Made by a program: the position numbers and the translations under genes. Below, piece by piece: positions 28,363-38,879 of a stretch of DNA of 64,000 nucleotides. The stretch comes from Melioribacteraceae bacterium (GTDB taxonomy: Bacteria; Bacteroidota; Ignavibacteria; Ignavibacteriales; Melioribacteraceae). The notes under the pieces were generated by a model, which did no database searches, was not told the origin of the DNA, and saw only the letters and a list, made by a program, of their open reading frames with translations. Numbering within the stretch: position 1 is the stretch's first letter; every line of letters begins with the position of its first letter. The DNA lies in NCBI GenBank assembly GCA_016342755.1, contig JAEINS010000006.1, forward strand, positions 124,001 through 188,000, written 5' to 3'.

Positions 28363-28556
28363 ATTTTTCTCTCTAATTGTTTAACATATAACAAAAAAAT
28401 ATATTTATAATATTGAAGAAGAATAAAATATAAAGCGTATGAAAAATTTATAATACTGAATTAATTATTGATTTAATAGTTTAATATTTATAAACTCAAT
28501 AAGTTTAAATATGATGTATAATCAATACTAAATTGATAAGTAAAAAAGTTAAAGAG

Positions 28557-30446
28557 ATGACAAAAAATAGTAACGTAAAAATAATTATAGCTTTAGCTAT
28601 ACTATTGTTAAACAATTTTAATCCTTTAACTAAAGCTGGGGAAAATAATATTTCGTTTGAATATATTACTTCCAACAACGGGTTATCGCAAAATGCTGTT
28701 TATGCAATTCATCAGGACAAAAAGGGGTTTTTGTGGTTTGGAACTGAGGATGGATTAAATAGATATGACGGCTACAATTTTAGAATATTTAAATTCCAGA
28801 AAAATGATTCAACCAGTATCTCGAATAATTGGATTACAGCAATAAAAGAGGACTCATACGGTTACCTCTGGATCGGGACAAAAAAGGGACTTAATAAATT
28901 TAATCCGGTTACAGAAGAGTTTATTTCATATTTGCATTCTGATAAAGAAGGATCAATTTCGGGCGATATTATTTCTACTATTCAGATTGATAAAAACGGG
29001 ATTATCTGGATTGGCACTATAGGCACAGGGTTAAATAGTTTTGATAGAAGTAAAAATACATTTTCTCATTATAATTACAATGAATCCAACTCAAATTCAA
29101 TTAGTGATAACAGCATTTTTTCTTTGTACGAAGATCACCACGGGTATTTATGGATTGGCACTGTAAATGGCGGTCTAAACCGGTTTGACCTTAATACTAA
29201 TACAATCAAAAGATATACACATAACGCTGATAATAAAAAAGGTATTCCCAGTGGTTCGGTTAGATTTTCATTTTGTTATAAGTCAGATAAACTATTAGTC
29301 GGAGTTCAAAATTCCGGATTGTTTTTATATGATTATTCAACAGAAGAATTTACACTTTTTGAGTTTGCAGAAAAAAAGAATAAAGTGGTTCCGGTTAAAA
29401 TACGTTCATACTGGCTGGAAGATAATGATAATAAGCTGTGGATTGGGACTTTAGGAGAGGGACTATTTTTTATAGATCTTGAATCAGGAGAAATTAATCA
29501 CATAAATGATGACGCTAAATTAAAATCCAACCTTAACAATAATACAATTTTATCGATGTTAAAAGATAACACAGGTACTTTTTGGATTGGTACAAGCGGA
29601 GGCGGTGCAAATAAATTAAAGAACTCATTTTTTCATCATTTTACAAGGACAGCAAATTTTAACTTATCAAGCAAATTAGTCTGGTGTTTTTATGAGGACA
29701 ATAATAACATAGTCTGGGTGGGAACTGGCAAAGGAATTAATCTTTTTGACCCAAATAAAAGGACTGTAAAAAAACTTATTATTGGCGGAGATAAATCGTT
29801 ATTTATAAATAATGTTGCAGTATGGACAATTGCCAAAGAACCAGACAAGAATATTTATTGGCTGGGTACAAGTCAGGGATTGGTTAAGTATAACAGATCA
29901 AAAAACACTTATAAAGTTTTTAAGAATGATGAATCCGTTTCTACAAGTCTGAGTAATAATCAGGTTTGGAAAATATTTATAGACAGCAGTAAAAGAATAT
30001 GGATAGGCACAGACTACGGATTAAATCTATACAATTCTAAAGGGGATAATTTTAAACACTATGAAAGTTTAGCAGATTCAACTTCAATTTCTTCCAATCT
30101 TATTAGTGACATAATAGAAGATGATTTAGGAAATATCTGGGTTGGCACAACGGATAACGGAATTAGCGTATTAGATAAAAATGGAAATGTAATTAGCGGC
30201 TTATCAGAATATGATGGATTAACCAGTGATGAAATAATCTGCATGTATAATGATAATACTGGAAATGTATGGATAGGAACAGGGTCCGGGTTTAATGAAT
30301 TTGATACCAAAACAAAAACAATAAAACAGTTTGGTGTAAATGAAGGACTTCCAAATGAATGTGTTTACGGTTTTCTGGAAGATAATTTAGGTGACTTATG
30401 GATTACTACAAATGGCGGAGCAGCAAAATATTCAAAAAAAAAATAA
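28557..30446 (+). CDS. Two-component-regulator propeller sensor, N-terminal part (frame broken at its end)
   Basis: 629 residues from ATG 28557; a TTG at 28533 is the alternative. A signal sequence is followed by about twelve propeller blades, each with a WIGT/WVGT motif and then GLN.FD (FLWFGTEDGLNRYDGY, YLWIGTKKGLNKFN, NIWVGTTDNGISVLD and others). That is the periplasmic double beta-propeller of the hybrid two-component sensors of Bacteroidota, which bind oligosaccharides. The frame ends in an A10 run (30434-30443) with SKKK and a stop, while the missing Y_Y_Y and membrane parts continue in the +1 frame from there. One base fewer in the run would join them. Confidence 0.82.
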   Translation: MTKNSNVKIIIALAILLLNNFNPLTKAGENNISFEYITSNNGLSQNAVYAIHQDKKGFLWFGTEDGLNRYDGYNFRIFKFQKNDSTSISNNWITAIKEDSYGYLWIGTKKGLNKFNPVTEEFISYLHSDKEGSISGDIISTIQIDKNGIIWIGTIGTGLNSFDRSKNTFSHYNYNESNSNSISDNSIFSLYEDHHGYLWIGTVNGGLNRFDLNTNTIKRYTHNADNKKGIPSGSVRFSFCYKSDKLLVGVQNSGLFLYDYSTEEFTLFEFAEKKNKVVPVKIRSYWLEDNDNKLWIGTLGEGLFFIDLESGEINHINDDAKLKSNLNNNTILSMLKDNTGTFWIGTSGGGANKLKNSFFHHFTRTANFNLSSKLVWCFYEDNNNIVWVGTGKGINLFDPNKRTVKKLIIGGDKSLFINNVAVWTIAKEPDKNIYWLGTSQGLVKYNRSKNTYKVFKNDESVSTSLSNNQVWKIFIDSSKRIWIGTDYGLNLYNSKGDNFKHYESLADSTSISSNLISDIIEDDLGNIWVGTTDNGISVLDKNGNVISGLSEYDGLTSDEIICMYNDNTGNVWIGTGSGFNEFDTKTKTIKQFGVNEGLPNECVYGFLEDNLGDLWITTNGGAAKYSKKK

Positions 30447-31479
30447 TTCATTTAAAAATTTCACAAAGGCTGATGGTCTGCAGGATAACGAGTTTAATAT
30501 TGGAGCATATTTAAAACTTAAAAATGGTGATCTGTTAATAGGCGGTATTAACGGCTTTAATCTCTTTACTCCTAATGAAATTCTGTTAAATCCTTTGCTT
30601 CCGGAAGTTGTATTTTCTGAATTAAAAATATTTAATAAACCGATAAGAATTGGACAGGCAGTAAATGGAAATGTTATCCTGACAAAAGCATTAAATGAAA
30701 CTGAAAAAATTACACTTAGTAATGATGAAAATTTTTTCTCGATTGAATTTGCCGCGCTTCATTATGTAAATCCGAATAAAAATAAATACTCTTACATGTT
30801 AGAAGGATTCCATTCAGGCTGGATAAATGCCGATAAAAACAGAGAGGCAACTTTTACAAATCTTGATGCGGGTGAATATAAGTTCCGTGTTAAAGCTTCA
30901 AACAGCGATGGAATATGGAATGAATCCGGTACAACTCTTAGAATTGAGATACTTCCGCCATGGTGGCAAACACGTTTGTTTATAATAATTGCAATATTGC
31001 TGATTTTAACTTTATCCGTTTCGCTCCATTTTTTCAAAATTGAAAGGATAAAAGAAAGAAATTTAAGTCTCTATGATCATAATGTTGAATTGAATGTTCA
31101 AATTAGAGAAAGAAAATCAGCCGAAGAAAAATTAATTAATTCGAAACAAAATCTTGTCGACATTTTAAATTCTGTGTCATCGGTATATATATGTGTCGAT
31201 AAAAATAGTAAAATAATATATCTAAATGCTGAAGCTGAAAAATTTGCGGCAATAAAAGATGTAAAATTAATAGGGGAAAATATTCAGACTGTATTTCCTC
31301 AATTATCTTCCGATACAGAAATTATAAAAGAGGTAATAAACAAAGGGCGGACAAGGTTTTTATGCCGTAAAGTAGAAGATGACTTTCCTCATAAAATTGA
31401 AATTGCTATCTATCCGCTCCGTAAAAAAACAGGTAAAGGCGCGGTTTTGCGTATAGACCGCACCATGGATAATACTTAG
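30391..31479 (+). CDS. Propeller sensor, C-terminal part: Y_Y_Y domain, membrane helix, PAS; kinase domain missing
   Basis: This frame overlaps the end of the previous one; likely coding starts at the A10 run. It carries a last propeller piece (GLQDNEFNIGAYLKLKNGDLLIGGINGFNLF), the Y_Y_Y domain (about residues 95-190, with FSIEFAALHYVNPNKNKYSY), a membrane helix (about 195-215, LFIIIAILLILTLSVSLHF), a short coiled coil and a PAS domain (NSVSSVYICVDKNSKIIYLNAEAEKF). The protein stops at GKGAVLRIDRTMDNT, where related sensors continue with ...EKMMSVGGLAAGMAHEINNPL, the start of the kinase. There is no room for that: the convergent malic-enzyme gene ends inside the last codons (4-bp overlap). 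Confidence 0.75.
   Translation: MTYGLLQMAEQQNIQKKNNSFKNFTKADGLQDNEFNIGAYLKLKNGDLLIGGINGFNLFTPNEILLNPLLPEVVFSELKIFNKPIRIGQAVNGNVILTKALNETEKITLSNDENFFSIEFAALHYVNPNKNKYSYMLEGFHSGWINADKNREATFTNLDAGEYKFRVKASNSDGIWNESGTTLRIEILPPWWQTRLFIIIAILLILTLSVSLHFFKIERIKERNLSLYDHNVELNVQIRERKSAEEKLINSKQNLVDILNSVSSVYICVDKNSKIIYLNAEAEKFAAIKDVKLIGENIQTVFPQLSSDTEIIKEVINKGRTRFLCRKVEDDFPHKIEIAIYPLRKKTGKGAVLRIDRTMDNT
30434..30443 (+). other. A10 tract at the frame break of the propeller sensor
   Basis: Ten A directly before the stop TAA (30444-30446). Nine (or twelve) A would fuse the two halves into one protein reading SKK-NNSFKNF. It can be a real mutation, a contingency (phase-variable) tract, a site of transcriptional slippage, or a sequencing error. 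Confidence 0.6.
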
Positions 31480-33737
31480 TTCTTGTTTGCTTTTTTTCTG
31501 GCAACAGCTTCAACCATTGCAATGGTAGTTAAATTTACTACTTCTTCTACAGTAGCGTTATACTGCAATAAATGAGCAGGTAGTCTTGTTCCAAGCAGAA
31601 CAGGACCTATGGCAACAGCTTCGCCTAAACACTGAAGCGAATGCATAGCCAGATTAGCCGACTGAAGATCGGGGAAAATTAATACATTGGCATCCGAATC
31701 AAGTTTAGTAAACGGGAAATACTTTTTTCTGGTTGCGGCATCACGGGCAGTAACCATTTGCATCTCGCCGTCAATTATAAGTTCAGGGTTTTTAGATTTA
31801 GCAATTTCTGTAGCCCGTTTTATTTTTTTTACAGAAGGATGAATTACACTGCCGAAATTAGAAAATGAAAGCATTGCCACCTTGGGTTCAATACCAAGGG
31901 TTTTACTCATGTTTGCGGTTAACAAAGCAATCTCGGCTAACTCTTCAGCATTCGGATTAATATTAACGGCACAATCGGCTAATAATACCGCGTCTTTCGG
32001 AAGCAGCATTAAATAATGACTTGCTATTCTGCTTATTCCCGGAGCGGTTCCAATAATTTCAAGAATAGTTCTTAATGTATCGGAATAATGTGTAGAAAGT
32101 CCGGCAATCATCATGTCTGTATCACCGCAGTGCAGCATCATTGAAGCAAAATGGTCTTTGTTTAAAATTCTTTCCGCGGCGGCCTGTCTTGTTACTCCGT
32201 TTCTCTGCCGCATTTTGAAAAATTCTTCAACATAAGTTTCATAATGTATACTATGATGCGGATCCGCCACCTGTACTCCGCCAAGATCCAGGTCAATTTT
32301 TTCCGCAAGTTTGTAGATCTCTTCTTCATTTCCAAGTAAAATTGGCTGGGCTATGTTTTCGTCCATTAAAACCCGACTTGCGCGCAATATAGTTTCGTTT
32401 GTACCTTCTGTAAATACTACTTTTAAGTTTTGCTGAGGAGTGCGTAATAATAACTGCCTCATTGTATCCCTGCCGGTTCCATGTCTTATAGTAAGGTTTT
32501 TTTGATAGTTCTCCTTAACAATTTCTTTCTGCGCAATATTCTGTTTTACAGCCATATCGGCAACGGCTGCTGATTCCCACACTAAAATTCTTGGGTCAAC
32601 CGGTTTAGGAAGAAGATACTCCGGACCAAAACTAAAGTGTTCGTACCCGTAAGCCCGTTCAACTTCTTCAAGAATCTCTTCTCTGGCCAGTTCTGCTAAC
32701 GCTCTGGAAGCAGCAAGCATCATTTCTTCAGTTATAGAAGTAGCCTGCACATCTAAGGCGCCCCGCAGGATATATGGAAAACTTAAAATATCTAAAACCG
32801 CGTTTGGATTCTGTCCCAATCCGGTTGCGACAATTATATCCTGCCTGCAGCTTTTTGCTTCCTCGTAACTTATTTCAGGTTCAGGAGTGGCAAGCGGAAA
32901 AACAATGGGGAACCTGTTCATTGTGAGTATCATTTCCGTTGTTAAAATATTGCCGGATGATGCACCAATAAATACATCGGCACCTTTCATTCCGGCTTCT
33001 AAATCTTTAGAATCCGAATTATTTACAAACTCAATTTGATGTTCAAATAAATCATGTCTGTCAGGTGTTAGAAGACCTTTTATATCATATATAAACAGGT
33101 TATCAGGCTTTGCTCCAAGTTTTTTTAGTAATCTTGCACAGCCTATCCCGACAGTTCCGGCACCGCACAAAACTATTTTAACATCTTCAATGTTTTTGTT
33201 TACAAGTTCCAGAGCATTAATTAAAGCCGCAATAGCAACAATAGCGGTTCCATAAAGGTTTTCATGGAATACCGGAATGTTTAATTCATTACGCAGTTTA
33301 TCGTAAATGTATAACCCTTCGGGAGCCTTTATATCTTTAAGATTAATTGCGCCAAATGTCGGGAGTAATAGTTTAATGGTTTCTATAAATTTATCGGGAT
33401 CATTTGTATCAAGTTCAAGATCATAAACATCAATGTCGGCTAACCGCTTAAACAAAACAGCCATGCCTTCCAGCATAGGTTTAGCTGCTAATGCTCCTAT
33501 ATTACCTAACCCGGGAACGGATGAACCATTTGTAACCACTCCAACAAGATTGCCGCGGTTTGTATAATTAAAAGCGTTTGCGGAGTTTTGAGAAATTTCG
33601 AGTGAAGGATATGCAGCTCCGGGCAAATATGCCATTCGCATTTCTCTTGGTGATAAACAGGGTTTTGTTGGTTTTATTTCTATCTTTCCAGCTTTTTTAC
33701 CCGAATGATATTCTAGTGATTCTTCTTTTCTAATCAT
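31476..33737 (-). CDS. MaeB-type malic enzyme/phosphotransacetylase fusion with altered active site
   Basis: 753 residues: malic enzyme domain (about 1-420) and a phosphotransacetylase-like domain (about 430-753), the MaeB order. The phosphotransacetylase part looks ordinary (GDTDMMIAGLSTHYSDTLR, ADCAVNINPNAEELAEIA). The malic enzyme part does not: family Tyr (AY.PG) is kept at Tyr37, but the catalytic Lys of MEGKAVLF is Met92 (LEGMAVLF), the metal-binding Glu-Asp of NLED is Lys134-Asp135 (NLKD), and the Asp-Asp of HDDQHGT is Glu159-Asn160 (HENLYGT). ANPTPEI is ATPEPEI. Oxidative decarboxylation of malate is therefore unlikely. It follows the dikinase gene by 21 bp, so the two are one transcript. 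Confidence 0.82.
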   Translation of the reverse strand: MIRKEESLEYHSGKKAGKIEIKPTKPCLSPREMRMAYLPGAAYPSLEISQNSANAFNYTNRGNLVGVVTNGSSVPGLGNIGALAAKPMLEGMAVLFKRLADIDVYDLELDTNDPDKFIETIKLLLPTFGAINLKDIKAPEGLYIYDKLRNELNIPVFHENLYGTAIVAIAALINALELVNKNIEDVKIVLCGAGTVGIGCARLLKKLGAKPDNLFIYDIKGLLTPDRHDLFEHQIEFVNNSDSKDLEAGMKGADVFIGASSGNILTTEMILTMNRFPIVFPLATPEPEISYEEAKSCRQDIIVATGLGQNPNAVLDILSFPYILRGALDVQATSITEEMMLAASRALAELAREEILEEVERAYGYEHFSFGPEYLLPKPVDPRILVWESAAVADMAVKQNIAQKEIVKENYQKNLTIRHGTGRDTMRQLLLRTPQQNLKVVFTEGTNETILRASRVLMDENIAQPILLGNEEEIYKLAEKIDLDLGGVQVADPHHSIHYETYVEEFFKMRQRNGVTRQAAAERILNKDHFASMMLHCGDTDMMIAGLSTHYSDTLRTILEIIGTAPGISRIASHYLMLLPKDAVLLADCAVNINPNAEELAEIALLTANMSKTLGIEPKVAMLSFSNFGSVIHPSVKKIKRATEIAKSKNPELIIDGEMQMVTARDAATRKKYFPFTKLDSDANVLIFPDLQSANLAMHSLQCLGEAVAIGPVLLGTRLPAHLLQYNATVEEVVNLTTIAMVEAVARKKANKN

Positions 33738-33758: not shown

Positions 33759-36700
33759 CTACATATTTGGTTTAATTAATAATGGAAATTTCTCTACAGT
33801 CTCTTTATAAGCCGATAAAAACGTTGCCACCGGCCTGACCTGCATTATCCATATTTTAGAACCTTCAATTGCGTATTCTATATCTAAAGGATATCCATAC
33901 TCCGATTCCAATTTAATTGCCAGTTTTACTAATTCACAGATTTCAACATATTCTAATGCCGGTCTAAACCTTTGATGATATAAGGTCGCTTCAATTCTTG
34001 TTCCTGTTCCAACGGTCTTATCAAAGACCACCTGCTCTTGTTTATCAGCTGTTATATAATTAAAGTTTAACGGACTATTCTCAAGATCACCTTCTTTAAC
34101 AACTGTAATCTGATCTGATGCCGCTGTGCCGGAAACAATTCCTTCCCCTAATCCAAGTCCGGCATTAATAATAATTTCCCTAAGATTATTTTTAGAAACG
34201 TTTATAGTCTGCATAACCCCGGAAACCCTGGCCCATATTATCTTTTGGATTATTACTCCCCCTTTATACTGATAATCACTGCCCAATATTTTTCTGTTAT
34301 GAATTGCCCGCTCAGTCCACAATCCGCTCCAGGTTTTTTTAAGAAACTTAATAATAGATTCAAAACTATCGATAAATAAAAATGTTTCAAACTCTCCCGC
34401 TCTTGCGGCAACCTCAGCATCTTCTTCTAATGAAGATGATCTTATTGCAAAGTAAGTTTGGGTATTATCTGATTCACATTTTTGCAGAAGGTTTGTGTAG
34501 GCGGATTTAACTTTGGACAAAAGTTTTTCCGGTAAGGAAACGTTTTCCCAAAGCTTAGTTATATATTCAGATTTCTGTGAATCATTTATATCTTTTCTTA
34601 CAAGAATTAATTCGATTGCATCTTTAACTGTTTTTGCCTGAGTAGGAATTTCCTTTATAAAAGATTTTGTCGATTCTAATTTATTATCAAGTACATCCTG
34701 AAAGGCTTTGTTGGAAACCGCAAACCACGGAGAAATATTTTCTTCGCCACAAATCTGATTTATCTCCGCAAGGTTAGAAGCTTTGCCGCCTACCAATGGC
34801 AGTAATTCAAGTCCGCCATGTTTTGAGTCAATTATATAATGAGATGCTAAGGATTTAATTAAACTTTTTTCCGCTTCAGAAATGCTTATCTGAATTGATT
34901 TAATAAACTGTTCCTTTTTTTCAGAGAGATAAAGCAAAGACTTAATGCGTTCCAGTTGTCTATAAATATGTCTAATCTTCAAAGGGCTTTTTGAATGCAT
35001 TAACATGTATTCTGCCGCTGTGTAACGGGTTTCAAAAATATACTCCAGCCTTTCTAAGGAAATTCTATTTAATTCTTTTATACTTCTAAGATTAAGCTCT
35101 TTGTAATTGAAGTTCGTTTTATTAAGAAAATTTTTAATCTTATCTAAAAGATTATGAAGGTGAATGATCTTTAACCGGGAAACTATAATTTCATTCAAAT
35201 AATTTGTAGTTGAAATGTTTTTAATAATTGTATCATATTCCCTTATATATTGCTGATACATTTCCATTACAATATTATTAAGAAAACTTTTAACAGCTTC
35301 ACTAGTATTTGGGTTAGCAATAATTATCTTTAATAAATTAGTACGTTCATTAAAATCAGCGTTTTTACCTGAGGTTAAATCTCCAATTAATATTTCGTGT
35401 ACAGCAAACCTTGTTATTATTGGGTCTTTTAAACGTGATAAGATTTTTTCAATTTGATGACGAGCCTTTAAAAGTTTTCCTCTTAGCGGCAGAACATTCT
35501 CGTCCAGCGAATTGGCAATTCGGAAACTCATCCTTCCATAAGTCCTAAAGCCATTATATAAAGCCAGTGTATCAAGATCCTGCCCCAGAACCTCAAGTAT
35601 ACTTTTGTTAGCATCTAAAACTATTATATCGCCGTCATTCAAATTATATTTTTTTTCATGAATATCTTTCATGATGGTGATATTCATACCATTGATTTTT
35701 TTTCTTTCCTCTTTATATTCAATCTGATTATAAACAATACTTTTATTTCCGCCAGTATTAGTAATCCACTTTCCTTCAATAATAATTGATGGTTTTTCAA
35801 ACTGAGTTGCAATAAGTCCGGCATGACTTAATATTCCGCCGCCGGTAGAAATTATTCCTGCCGAGTGATAAAGAAATGTATTATCTTCCGGCGAAATAGT
35901 TTCAGCAACCAAAATGGAATCATCAAAATCCTCTGGGACTCTGGAACTTAATCCCAGAACGGCTTTACCGGTTGTTCTTCCCGGAGAAGCCGATAAACCA
36001 TTTATTATTCTTTCACCCTGTAAATATGCATCTCTTACATACTCAATCTTTGTTGATAGATTATATTTTAACTCCGTAATTGTATTAGAAATATCTTCTG
36101 ACTTTGGTTCCTTAAAAGGAATTATATAATTATTCTGGCGTAAAACTTTTGAAAATTTATTTACATCACAGCTCCAATTATAAATCCATTTTTCAGAAAT
36201 AAAGCTTCTGTGTTTATAAATTCCGTTCCCTTCAGAAAAAAGTGCTAAGTTAATAATATCATTGTGATTTCTAAGGATATAGAGGTTAAGGCTTTTTCCC
36301 AATAAAGAAATTTTTGTCAGCTGAACTTTCATGTGTTCAATACTGCCTATCGAATGGAATGTTAGTGTTCTTTCTAACGGTAAAATAAATTTGGCTAAGA
36401 TAACTGAGTCTTCAAGTGAACCTTCTTTTCCTGAAATTATATTTACAAATAATTCTATCGGATTGGTTCTAACAAATAATTCGTTTGCCGCGTTAAAAAA
36501 TAATCCCGCGTTTTTTGTAATTTCCCCGGATTTAATGGCTTCTCTAAATGCCCATAAAAACATTTTTTCAAGATAAACCTGTCCAAATGCCCGTAAGCTG
36601 TTTTGCTCAGAAAACTGCTGAATATCAATTCCCAGTTCGTTAAAAGAGGATTTAATATTATGCAGAAAGTGATCATCTTTTCTGGCAATAAATCTGTCTC

Positions 36701-38879
36701 TATATTCGCCTTCACCATTCCATTCTTCTACTTTTTCAGATTCTAAAGATTCCGTTTTATAGCATAATATTTTTTGCTTATTATTATTCAGTAATGAAGA
36801 AAGAGGAAAAACTCCCCATTGTAAAAAGGATTCTGTCCAGGCTTCAATTATTTTATCTTTGGTTTCTTTATTATAATCTAGCGAACCAATTGTCCAATCA
36901 AGATCCATCATGTATGGAACCATTCTAAAAAGGTATTCAGCTTTTTCGCAGAGAAGTCCAAAATCTATTGTACGTTCCTTGTCATAACGCGCATGAATAC
37001 GGGTTCCTTCCATCTTAACATCAAATTCAAGCTTCTGGAATAGCTTTTTGATGGCATCAAGTTCCAAATTTGGATGCTGGTGCAGTTCGTAATTACTTAC
37101 TCCGTAATACTCAAGATCAATCATACCGCCCTGCAGCGGAGGTGAATAATCTATTCTAATAAATATTGGGTGATTTCTGAAATAAACATAATAATGGATT
37201 TCGTTTCCATAACAGAAAACATTTACATTGGGAAATCTTTCAGTTCCGTATAACATCTGACTCAAAAATCCACGGGCAACAATCTTAATAGGAAATGCTA
37301 CATTTTCCTCAAATTCATTCTCATTTTCATCTGGTTCAAAATCGGCGTAATGTATGTTTTTTATAATTGAGGAAATTTTATTATCAACTACAAAAGCCAA
37401 ATCGACTGTTCTATTCGGTGTTTTTCCTTTATCAACAAGTTTAAAGCCTAATTTTAATCCTCTTTGATGAAGGTATCTTTTTAATCCATGAATTGTTGTT
37501 ACATTATAAATACTTTTAGGTTCTTCAAACATCTGAACAAGTCGTGTCAGATCGGTAGAAAGCTGCGGCTGATCATCCACATCTTTAATTTCTCTATAGA
37601 CTTGTTCCTTTAATTTATTATAAATATTTGGCAGGTCTTTACATTCATCTGAGAATAAAGAAAAAAGAGAAACATAATCTTTTACAATTTTATCCAGAAG
37701 GTTTAAAATTCTCTCAATCTTTGTTTTTGTTAGCGGAGCAACATCTAAAATATCTTTTAAAACTAATGCGTGATTAAGATTGTAATGCCTAAATCTAGAT
37801 ACCGGGCTTTCTGTTTCATTTACAGAATTATCATCAGTTATAGTACCGCCAAAAGCTCTAACCAAATAAACATTACTGCCGGTTTTTAGTTTGGTTATAT
37901 TTTTTAAGAACTGGTTTTCGTTTTCAGAAATATAAACCGGAAGCGATTTGGGGAAAATTGTTTCATGTAATTTTGTAATCTTTATTCCGTAGTTAATCCG
38001 GTTCCAGCCAAGTTTACTAATTAATTCTTTTAACAGATCTTCATCGCATTTTCTTTCGGCAGATTTTATAGAGTCTATTAAAATTGAAGAGGTAGTTGAT
38101 TTTGGTTTTATAAAAAGAAGATCGGTATAAGACGCGCATGTGTAAGTTATATAGTTTGAAATCTGGGAATAAACCTTTGCGCCTAAAAATCTTTTAGCAA
38201 TCTCAGTTTGAATAGGCTGATTATCAGAATCCAAAAGTTTAGCCGCAAAAAATCTTATCTGAATTTTTTTATGTTTCATAAATAAATACAAAAGCGGATT
38301 ATCGCTGAAGCTTTTATCGTAAGGCGCATAATAATTTAGAATTACACGAATTTTCTCTACGTGTGTTTTTTCTGTCAGGTGCGATTTTTCCCGTAAAAAC
38401 TCATCAGCAAATATATCAACAACTTCATCGGTAATTGTAATCAGCATAGATTTGCATGATTCCAGAATAAAATTATAAGTCGCAGTAATTATTTCAGTTT
38501 TAGAACTCTGTAATAATTGTATTAATAGATTCCAATCAGGCTTTACCAGTGAAAAAAAATCAATAAAAAATTTATGTAATGCAAAAGCAGTTTTACTGTT
38601 TAAGGTTCTAAATTTATTTACCAGAGGGTATAATTGTTTTAAGTCGGAATTTGTAGTTACGTGTTTTTTGATTTGCTCTAGAAGAGCAGTAATTTTTTGC
38701 TGATTGCCTGAGACGGCGTTTATTTCTGGAAGTAACTCTTTAACAAGAAGCGATAATTCAGAATTATTTGTTGTTTCATGAGTGATTCTTTCTTTTTCCG
38801 GATTCATGATAACCATATTGTTGATTAACACAGGAACTAAAATTAATATAAAAGATACTAATATTTTTTTAATTAGCAT
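33759..38879 (-). CDS. Giant dikinase-like protein: phosphohistidine domain before ATP-grasp (PPDK_N) domain
   Basis: 1706 residues. Residues ~955-1040 form the swivelling phosphohistidine domain of the PEP-utilising family (GLSASPGRTTGKAVLG, then STGGGILSHAGLIATQFEKP with the His at about 1013). Residues ~1355-1700 are a PPDK_N/PEP-synthase ATP-grasp domain (PLVGGKASNLAEI, IRSSSLEED, AGEFETFL, AGLGLGEGIVSG, DIEYAIEG, WIMQVRPV). A coiled stretch of ~300 residues links them. The pyruvate/PEP barrel is absent. Order His-domain first, ATP domain last is that of plant glucan water dikinases and the reverse of PEP synthase and rifampin phosphotransferase. The N-terminal ~950 residues match nothing I know; a hydrophobic start (ILVSFILILVPVLINN) could be a signal anchor, or the start may be at ATG 38814-38805. 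Confidence 0.75.
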   Translation of the reverse strand: MLIKKILVSFILILVPVLINNMVIMNPEKERITHETTNNSELSLLVKELLPEINAVSGNQQKITALLEQIKKHVTTNSDLKQLYPLVNKFRTLNSKTAFALHKFFIDFFSLVKPDWNLLIQLLQSSKTEIITATYNFILESCKSMLITITDEVVDIFADEFLREKSHLTEKTHVEKIRVILNYYAPYDKSFSDNPLLYLFMKHKKIQIRFFAAKLLDSDNQPIQTEIAKRFLGAKVYSQISNYITYTCASYTDLLFIKPKSTTSSILIDSIKSAERKCDEDLLKELISKLGWNRINYGIKITKLHETIFPKSLPVYISENENQFLKNITKLKTGSNVYLVRAFGGTITDDNSVNETESPVSRFRHYNLNHALVLKDILDVAPLTKTKIERILNLLDKIVKDYVSLFSLFSDECKDLPNIYNKLKEQVYREIKDVDDQPQLSTDLTRLVQMFEEPKSIYNVTTIHGLKRYLHQRGLKLGFKLVDKGKTPNRTVDLAFVVDNKISSIIKNIHYADFEPDENENEFEENVAFPIKIVARGFLSQMLYGTERFPNVNVFCYGNEIHYYVYFRNHPIFIRIDYSPPLQGGMIDLEYYGVSNYELHQHPNLELDAIKKLFQKLEFDVKMEGTRIHARYDKERTIDFGLLCEKAEYLFRMVPYMMDLDWTIGSLDYNKETKDKIIEAWTESFLQWGVFPLSSLLNNNKQKILCYKTESLESEKVEEWNGEGEYRDRFIARKDDHFLHNIKSSFNELGIDIQQFSEQNSLRAFGQVYLEKMFLWAFREAIKSGEITKNAGLFFNAANELFVRTNPIELFVNIISGKEGSLEDSVILAKFILPLERTLTFHSIGSIEHMKVQLTKISLLGKSLNLYILRNHNDIINLALFSEGNGIYKHRSFISEKWIYNWSCDVNKFSKVLRQNNYIIPFKEPKSEDISNTITELKYNLSTKIEYVRDAYLQGERIINGLSASPGRTTGKAVLGLSSRVPEDFDDSILVAETISPEDNTFLYHSAGIISTGGGILSHAGLIATQFEKPSIIIEGKWITNTGGNKSIVYNQIEYKEERKKINGMNITIMKDIHEKKYNLNDGDIIVLDANKSILEVLGQDLDTLALYNGFRTYGRMSFRIANSLDENVLPLRGKLLKARHQIEKILSRLKDPIITRFAVHEILIGDLTSGKNADFNERTNLLKIIIANPNTSEAVKSFLNNIVMEMYQQYIREYDTIIKNISTTNYLNEIIVSRLKIIHLHNLLDKIKNFLNKTNFNYKELNLRSIKELNRISLERLEYIFETRYTAAEYMLMHSKSPLKIRHIYRQLERIKSLLYLSEKKEQFIKSIQISISEAEKSLIKSLASHYIIDSKHGGLELLPLVGGKASNLAEINQICGEENISPWFAVSNKAFQDVLDNKLESTKSFIKEIPTQAKTVKDAIELILVRKDINDSQKSEYITKLWENVSLPEKLLSKVKSAYTNLLQKCESDNTQTYFAIRSSSLEEDAEVAARAGEFETFLFIDSFESIIKFLKKTWSGLWTERAIHNRKILGSDYQYKGGVIIQKIIWARVSGVMQTINVSKNNLREIIINAGLGLGEGIVSGTAASDQITVVKEGDLENSPLNFNYITADKQEQVVFDKTVGTGTRIEATLYHQRFRPALEYVEICELVKLAIKLESEYGYPLDIEYAIEGSKIWIMQVRPVATFLSAYKETVEKFPLLIKPNM

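Follow-up and report, generated by a model that had tools for sequence, protein, structure and literature searches.

The window analyzed here, a 64,000-nucleotide stretch of a Melioribacteraceae genome, encodes a dikinase-like protein in which a phosphohistidine (swivel) domain stands ahead of the ATP-grasp domain and behind a large front half. As judged from its sequence, this protein is a variant of the phosphohistidine dikinases that joins a putative acceptor module without known matches to an obligate pseudo-malic enzyme partner, whose gene lies directly downstream (Table 1). We regard it as an even call that the two proteins constitute a single phosphotransfer system in which a dead metabolic enzyme acts as the sensor subunit. 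The proposal builds on the order of the domains, the conserved residues, the lost metal site of the partner, gene adjacency, exclusive co-occurrence, and congruent trees.

The phosphohistidine dikinase family has been described as largely unexplored (PMC4844700). Its members swap acceptor parts, among them those for pyruvate, rifampin, phenols, and glucan. The dikinase reported here would add an acceptor module unlike anything known, together with a pseudoenzyme from which it is genetically inseparable; if this partner gates the kinase via acetyl-CoA, the pair would plainly show a core metabolic enzyme that has become a sensor subunit. With only two proteins to purify, the acceptor question is also open to direct assay.

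Table 1. Features of the dikinase and partner genes in the window (invariant shares are those across six orthologues)
Feature	Position	Strand	Remark
Reversed-order dikinase-like protein, 1706 aa	33759..38879	-	Residues 1-24 probably outside the conserved protein; M25 likely alternative start
Fast-evolving, mainly helical front, residues 26-435	37575..38804	-	Helices in AlphaFold model
Conserved core, residues 436-670, candidate acceptor-side module	36870..37574	-	37.4% invariant
Second front part, residues 671-948, alpha/beta, moderately conserved	36036..36869	-	12.6% invariant
Phosphohistidine (swivel) domain, residues 949-1050, PF00391	35730..36035	-	Catalytic His1019 at 35823-35825
Variable linker between swivel and ATP-grasp, residues 1051-1345	34845..35729	-	6.8% invariant
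ATP-grasp domain, residues 1346-1690, PF01326	33810..34844	-	Catalytic residues kept
Partner gene, pseudo-malic enzyme, hybrid MaeB-type, 753 aa	31476..33737	-	Begins 21 bp after the dikinase gene
Lost metal/acid site of partner: E134K in INLKD; D159E, D160N in HENLY	33258..33338	-	Canonical INLED, HDDQH
PTA-like domain of partner	31518..32462	-	BbMaeB R531, R577, Q679 counterparts kept

The dikinase gene and its catalytic domains

Open reading frame analysis confirmed the 1706-codon frame exactly where the initial annotation had placed it, on the minus strand; read on the plus strand, this interval is riddled with stops. The gene is real, since its orthologues (1623-1696 aa; complete copies 39-44% identical to the window's protein) keep the whole architecture. 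In the alignment, the longest reading of every orthologue begins at or after the window's M25, which may be the true start, and none includes the hydrophobic residues 1-24. Because the orthologues lack this hydrophobic start, membrane attachment is no conserved feature, and the idea that the start places the protein at the membrane finds no support.

Pfam places PF00391 (PEP-utilizers; residues 987-1037, E = 1.3e-8) before PF01326 (PPDK_N; residues 1361-1687, E = 6e-53) and detects no PEP/pyruvate barrel at E<=1, which bears out both the reversed order and the missing barrel that had been read from the letters alone. The catalytic histidine does reside in the swivel domain, as had been claimed, but it is H1019 and not the residue near 1013 first given, six positions away. 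It closes the stretch S1011-T-G-G-G-I-L-S-H and fits the T/SxxGGxxxH motif (described as S/TxxGGxxxH in PMC12167813). Two residues before it, the position of the regulatory Thr is occupied by Leu; HpeH likewise lacks this Thr, as the RPH-type and phenolic kinases of the HpeHI study are reported to do (PMC12167813). H1019 and the ATP-grasp residues K1366, R1480, D1666, E1668, Q1680, and R1682 are invariant across the full-length orthologues. The key residues of both domains are thus kept, as first stated, and the loss of catalytic residues that the initial annotation had named as contrary evidence is not seen. With His and ATP-grasp residues intact, the earlier reading that ATP would phosphorylate the histidine stands, and the protein is assignable by its ATP-grasp and swivel features to the ATP-dependent phosphohistidine dikinase superfamily.

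More specific assignments failed. Searches of PDB sequences returned credible matches to the swivel and ATP-grasp domains only, and among NCBIfam models the ATP-grasp part is nearest to PEP synthase (PRK06464, 196 bits), well short of every family cut-off. Identity with PEP synthase or PPDK was rejected, given the absence of the barrel and scores far below the equivalog cut-offs. Rifampin phosphotransferase was rejected as well: RIF_Ptrans_rph reaches 140 bits where its cut-off demands 999, matches the ATP-grasp domain only, and has a different domain order. A search for defense systems with PADLOC gave no match to the dikinase.

With the front half as query, a search of 164 genomes in the order (Ignavibacteria) found the dikinase in seven, distributed over two families and six genera; besides the window's copy there are five complete ones and one cut by a contig end. 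Beyond the order, samples of 391 genomes from the class and 396 from the phylum yielded no copy, and neither did viral contigs and plasmids. A genome-contig scan with only two peptide patterns recovered one locus, the orthologue of genome G007. The rarity of the dikinase is therefore scoped to the order, the sampled class and phylum genomes, and this limited contig scan.

A conserved core in the front half

Residues 1-950 have zero Pfam matches at E<=1, and the front half has no credible match in Pfam searches run per orthologue, in profile searches of PDB sequences, or among plasmids. Profile comparison found no internal duplication of the front. In particular, no PEP synthase or rifampin phosphotransferase arrangement, which the initial annotation had listed as evidence against its own reading, was detected there. 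The initial description of a front of some 950 residues without known relatives holds in this respect, but the front is not uniform: a fast-evolving segment (residues 1-435) precedes a strongly conserved one (436-670) and a moderately conserved one (671-948).

Across six orthologues, the invariant share amounts to 1.7% in residues 26-200 and 14.9% in residues 201-435, peaks in the core, and drops again in the second front part and in the linker (Table 1). The 235-residue core is the most conserved block of the dikinase, above both the swivel (28.4%) and the ATP-grasp domain (30.1%). It contains 32 invariant polar residues with charged or amide/imidazole side chains. Examples lie in H464-G-L-K-R-Y-L-H-Q472, R568-N-H-P571, and R575-I-D577, and further on G584-G-M-I-D-L589, A630-R-x-D-K-E-R636, and M658-D-L-D-W662. 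This makes the core an obvious candidate to house the acceptor site or to make some essential contact with a protein. The earlier expectation that the front must supply the acceptor side is well served by this finding, since the dikinase's strongest conservation falls there; the role of the core as acceptor site is suggested by conservation, and its fold is modeled at moderate confidence.

Structure prediction, one of the checks recommended initially for the front, produced two AlphaFold models (mean pLDDT, 58.7 and 64.5) in which the core reaches a pLDDT of about 60-75. Foldseek found no PDB fold match at E<=0.001. For the core, the models show a faint likeness to type III secretion chaperone and YbjN-like folds (3kxy, prob 0.84; 2plg, prob 0.87), a lead at most; the E values of 0.04-0.05 are not significant.

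The pseudo-malic enzyme partner

The best clue to function is the invariant downstream gene, which the initial annotation overlooked. In 6/6 testable genomes, the dikinase gene is immediately followed, on its own strand and at a distance of -14 to +21 bp, by a gene for a malic enzyme/PTA-like fusion of 749-760 aa; the flanking genes beyond the pair otherwise vary. This count leaves out the seventh genome (G445), where dikinase and partner lie on different short contigs. The window's partner comprises malic (residues 17-149), Malic_M (163-357), and PTA_PTB (426-740) domains, all in one chain. Among 160 genomes of the order, the partner clade, delimited at >=55% identity, is present in all seven that carry the dikinase and in 0/153 others; the next best full-length match to the partner shows 48% identity. 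A canonical malic enzyme is encoded elsewhere in the dikinase genomes checked (G000, G443, G445, G463, and G479); in G000 this canonical MaeB is on contig 11.

In a maximum-likelihood tree the partner clade is monophyletic (100/100 support) and stands on a long branch from the canonical MaeB proteins of the same genomes. The dikinase and partner trees agree in their supported branches and their pairwise distances correlate (r=0.90); the two genes are inherited as a unit. Such co-inheritance could mean a shared pathway instead of a complex. That the pair is a decaying relic, i.e., an ordinary small-molecule dikinase beside an inactive paralogue kept by chance, is the least probable of the readings we weighed. 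The partner of G007, which sits on a long branch, would fit such decay, but adjacency is conserved, co-occurrence exclusive, and the trees congruent across two families, and the partner domains remain about 70-78% identical among the other six genomes.

The catalytic motifs of malic enzymes have been rewritten in this clade. INLED and HDDQHGTA are invariant in the 8/8 canonical sequences aligned, whereas the partners carry INLKD and HENLY(G/S)TA in 6/7 and LTLQN and NLDLYSEA in the seventh. The first metal ligand is thereby changed from E to K or Q in 7/7 partners, and the DD pair to EN in six and to LD in the remaining one. The metal/acid site residues of the human malic enzyme are E255, D256, D278, and D279. 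Since, by established malic enzyme chemistry, two of three metal ligands are lost, the general acid is changed, and the charge is reversed at the first ligand, the partner clade should be unable to decarboxylate malate; the INLED and HDD metal ligands and general acid by which an active hybrid malic enzyme is recognized are absent. In G007 (L026:5420-7669, minus strand), the pseudo-malic enzyme has lost the GAG nucleotide-binding motif too, as if decay of the malic part were still going on, with the PTA part preserved better.

The acetyl-CoA site has fared differently. At site 1 of Bdellovibrio MaeB, acetyl-CoA is bound by R531, K534, R577, and Q679 (PMC12704298). The counterparts of R531, R577, and Q679 are kept in 7/7 partners, and that of K534 is K or R in six and Asn in the window. 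These residues may have been retained for oligomerization, not ligand binding, because they are ancestral to MaeB.

Sodium-pump oxaloacetate decarboxylase-like genes lie convergent to the pair in two genomes (L022:15445-18435, minus strand; L023:370-1500, plus strand), with a beta subunit in both and an alpha subunit in L022 as well. These adjoining genes, the descent of the partner from a pyruvate-forming enzyme, and the proximity of the ATP-grasp domain to PEP synthase models could be accommodated by a nonorthologous PEP synthase, with the front standing in for the pyruvate barrel and a malic-like partner that supplies or senses pyruvate. We consider this quite improbable, as the protein has no PEP/pyruvate barrel, its full-length score falls far under the PEP synthase cut-off of 598 bits, and the genome encodes a separate 963-aa PPDK-like protein.

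Elsewhere in the window, on the plus strand, what appears to be a single propeller-type sensor is split over two overlapping frames (28533-30446 and 30391-31479), which suggests a frameshift or an assembly error; no obvious kinase part is visible in these frames.

Proposed phosphotransfer and relation to known systems

The chemistry of established dikinases (PEP synthase, PPDK, RPH, and HpeHI) suggests how the pair might operate. As in these characterized relatives, the ATP-grasp domain would phosphorylate His1019 of the swivel from ATP, forming AMP. From the swivel, the phosphate would then pass to an acceptor that the front half binds, most probably through its core. This acceptor may be a protein, or else a small molecule belonging to the pyruvate/malate node. 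Since the malic site is dead but the fold and most acetyl-CoA residues are kept, the pseudo-malic enzyme would most likely gate the dikinase by acetyl-CoA, and perhaps also by C3/C4-acid status, as its regulatory subunit. Dikinase activity, AMP formation, acetyl-CoA sensing, and contact between the partners are thus predicted features of the system; a regulatory-subunit role for the partner, with reporting of acetyl-CoA and perhaps of malate or pyruvate, is put forward more cautiously.

A different division of labor would make the dikinase a regulatory protein kinase that passes the His phosphate to a protein docked by the front. The substrate might be the pseudo-malic enzyme or some other enzyme acting at the pyruvate/malate node. 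We deem this reading unlikely. It has a precedent in VadK (preprint, PMC12636432), an autophosphorylating kinase that derives from PPDK and is proposed to regulate carbon metabolism, and it would agree with the weak chaperone/YbjN-like resemblance of the core (3kxy, 2plg) and with an obligate partner that is itself a protein and lacks catalytic acids. However, the fold matches fall short of significance, and the many invariant charged residues packed into the core would suit a small-molecule site too.

Under the two-protein reading that we prefer, HpeHI, a two-protein dikinase (PMC12167813), is one precedent, and VadK is another. Our literature search found no paper linking a malic-enzyme pseudoenzyme with a PEP-synthase-like protein. 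In its fullest form, the reading would have a dead malic enzyme sense acetyl-CoA as the obligate subunit of a phosphohistidine dikinase that represents a new class, with an acceptor fold unseen before, in a phosphotransfer system, regulatory or metabolic, dedicated to the pyruvate/malate node; this combination we advance only tentatively, as less likely than not.

Each known system shares some of these traits. Rifampin phosphotransferase and other small-molecule dikinases (PMC4844700) resemble the dikinase in the ATP-grasp domain, the swivel His, a divergent acceptor part, and the absence of Thr at His-2. The RPH order, however, is ATP-grasp, acceptor, and His, whereas here the acceptor side and His precede the ATP-grasp domain, and the acceptor part is about twice the length of that of RPH and without detectable similarity to it. 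HpeHI, CreHI, and the phenylphosphate synthase PpsAB (PMC12167813) are two-protein systems in which, following the HpeH order, an acceptor part precedes the swivel His; in contrast, our dikinase carries an ATP-grasp domain within its single chain, and its companion is no ATP-grasp subunit but a pseudo-malic enzyme. VadK (Rv1127c; preprint, PMC12636432) is likewise dikinase derived, truncated relative to PPDK, and a proposed regulator of carbon metabolism, but it retains the normal PPDK order, unlike the present combination of a large new front with a dedicated partner. As for the partner, it is homologous from end to end (E about 1e-187) to the hybrid MaeB of E. coli and Bdellovibrio (PMC12704298), and most site-1 residues are kept, whereas the metal ligands and general acid are lost and the separate clade is confined to dikinase genomes.

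The likeness to the plant glucan dikinases GWD and PWD concerns a swivel His before a C-terminal ATP-grasp domain, a large N-terminal half, and the lack of a PEP barrel. The shared order and large front would fit the polysaccharide (glycogen) kinase that the initial annotation had suggested, which we now find highly improbable, and kinship with plant GWD is not upheld. Neither of the plant models PF22973 (GWD1_pHisD) and PF23166 (Ig_N_CWD1) finds a match in the genome, a negative for this genome only, since the control genomes were silent too. Pfam finds no glycan-binding domain in the dikinase, no glycogen genes were seen beside it in the neighborhoods read, and the linked pseudo-malic enzyme is a further difference from GWD/PWD. 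Moreover, order alone does not point to glucan, because the same genome encodes a second reversed-order protein with another front. The two proteins share only their swivel and ATP-grasp parts, and even the surroundings of the His differ (SHAGLIATQF in the 1706-aa dikinase). A reversed swivel/ATP-grasp order alone does not define a family.

This second protein (985 aa; G000 contig 30, L049:2616-5573, plus strand) has a signal-like start and an unrelated front, with its His motif SHIQLLARN near residue 547 and its ATP-grasp domain at 640-962. G000 also encodes PPDK_N proteins without a Pfam swivel match (contig 56, L044:1081-5555; contig 14, L045; contig 28, L046). Its PPDK_N proteins include a tandem pair (578 and 913 aa) that follows a glutamate dehydrogenase-like gene, a 1064-aa fusion to a nucleotidyltransferase domain, and one of 996 aa that weakly matches a response regulator.
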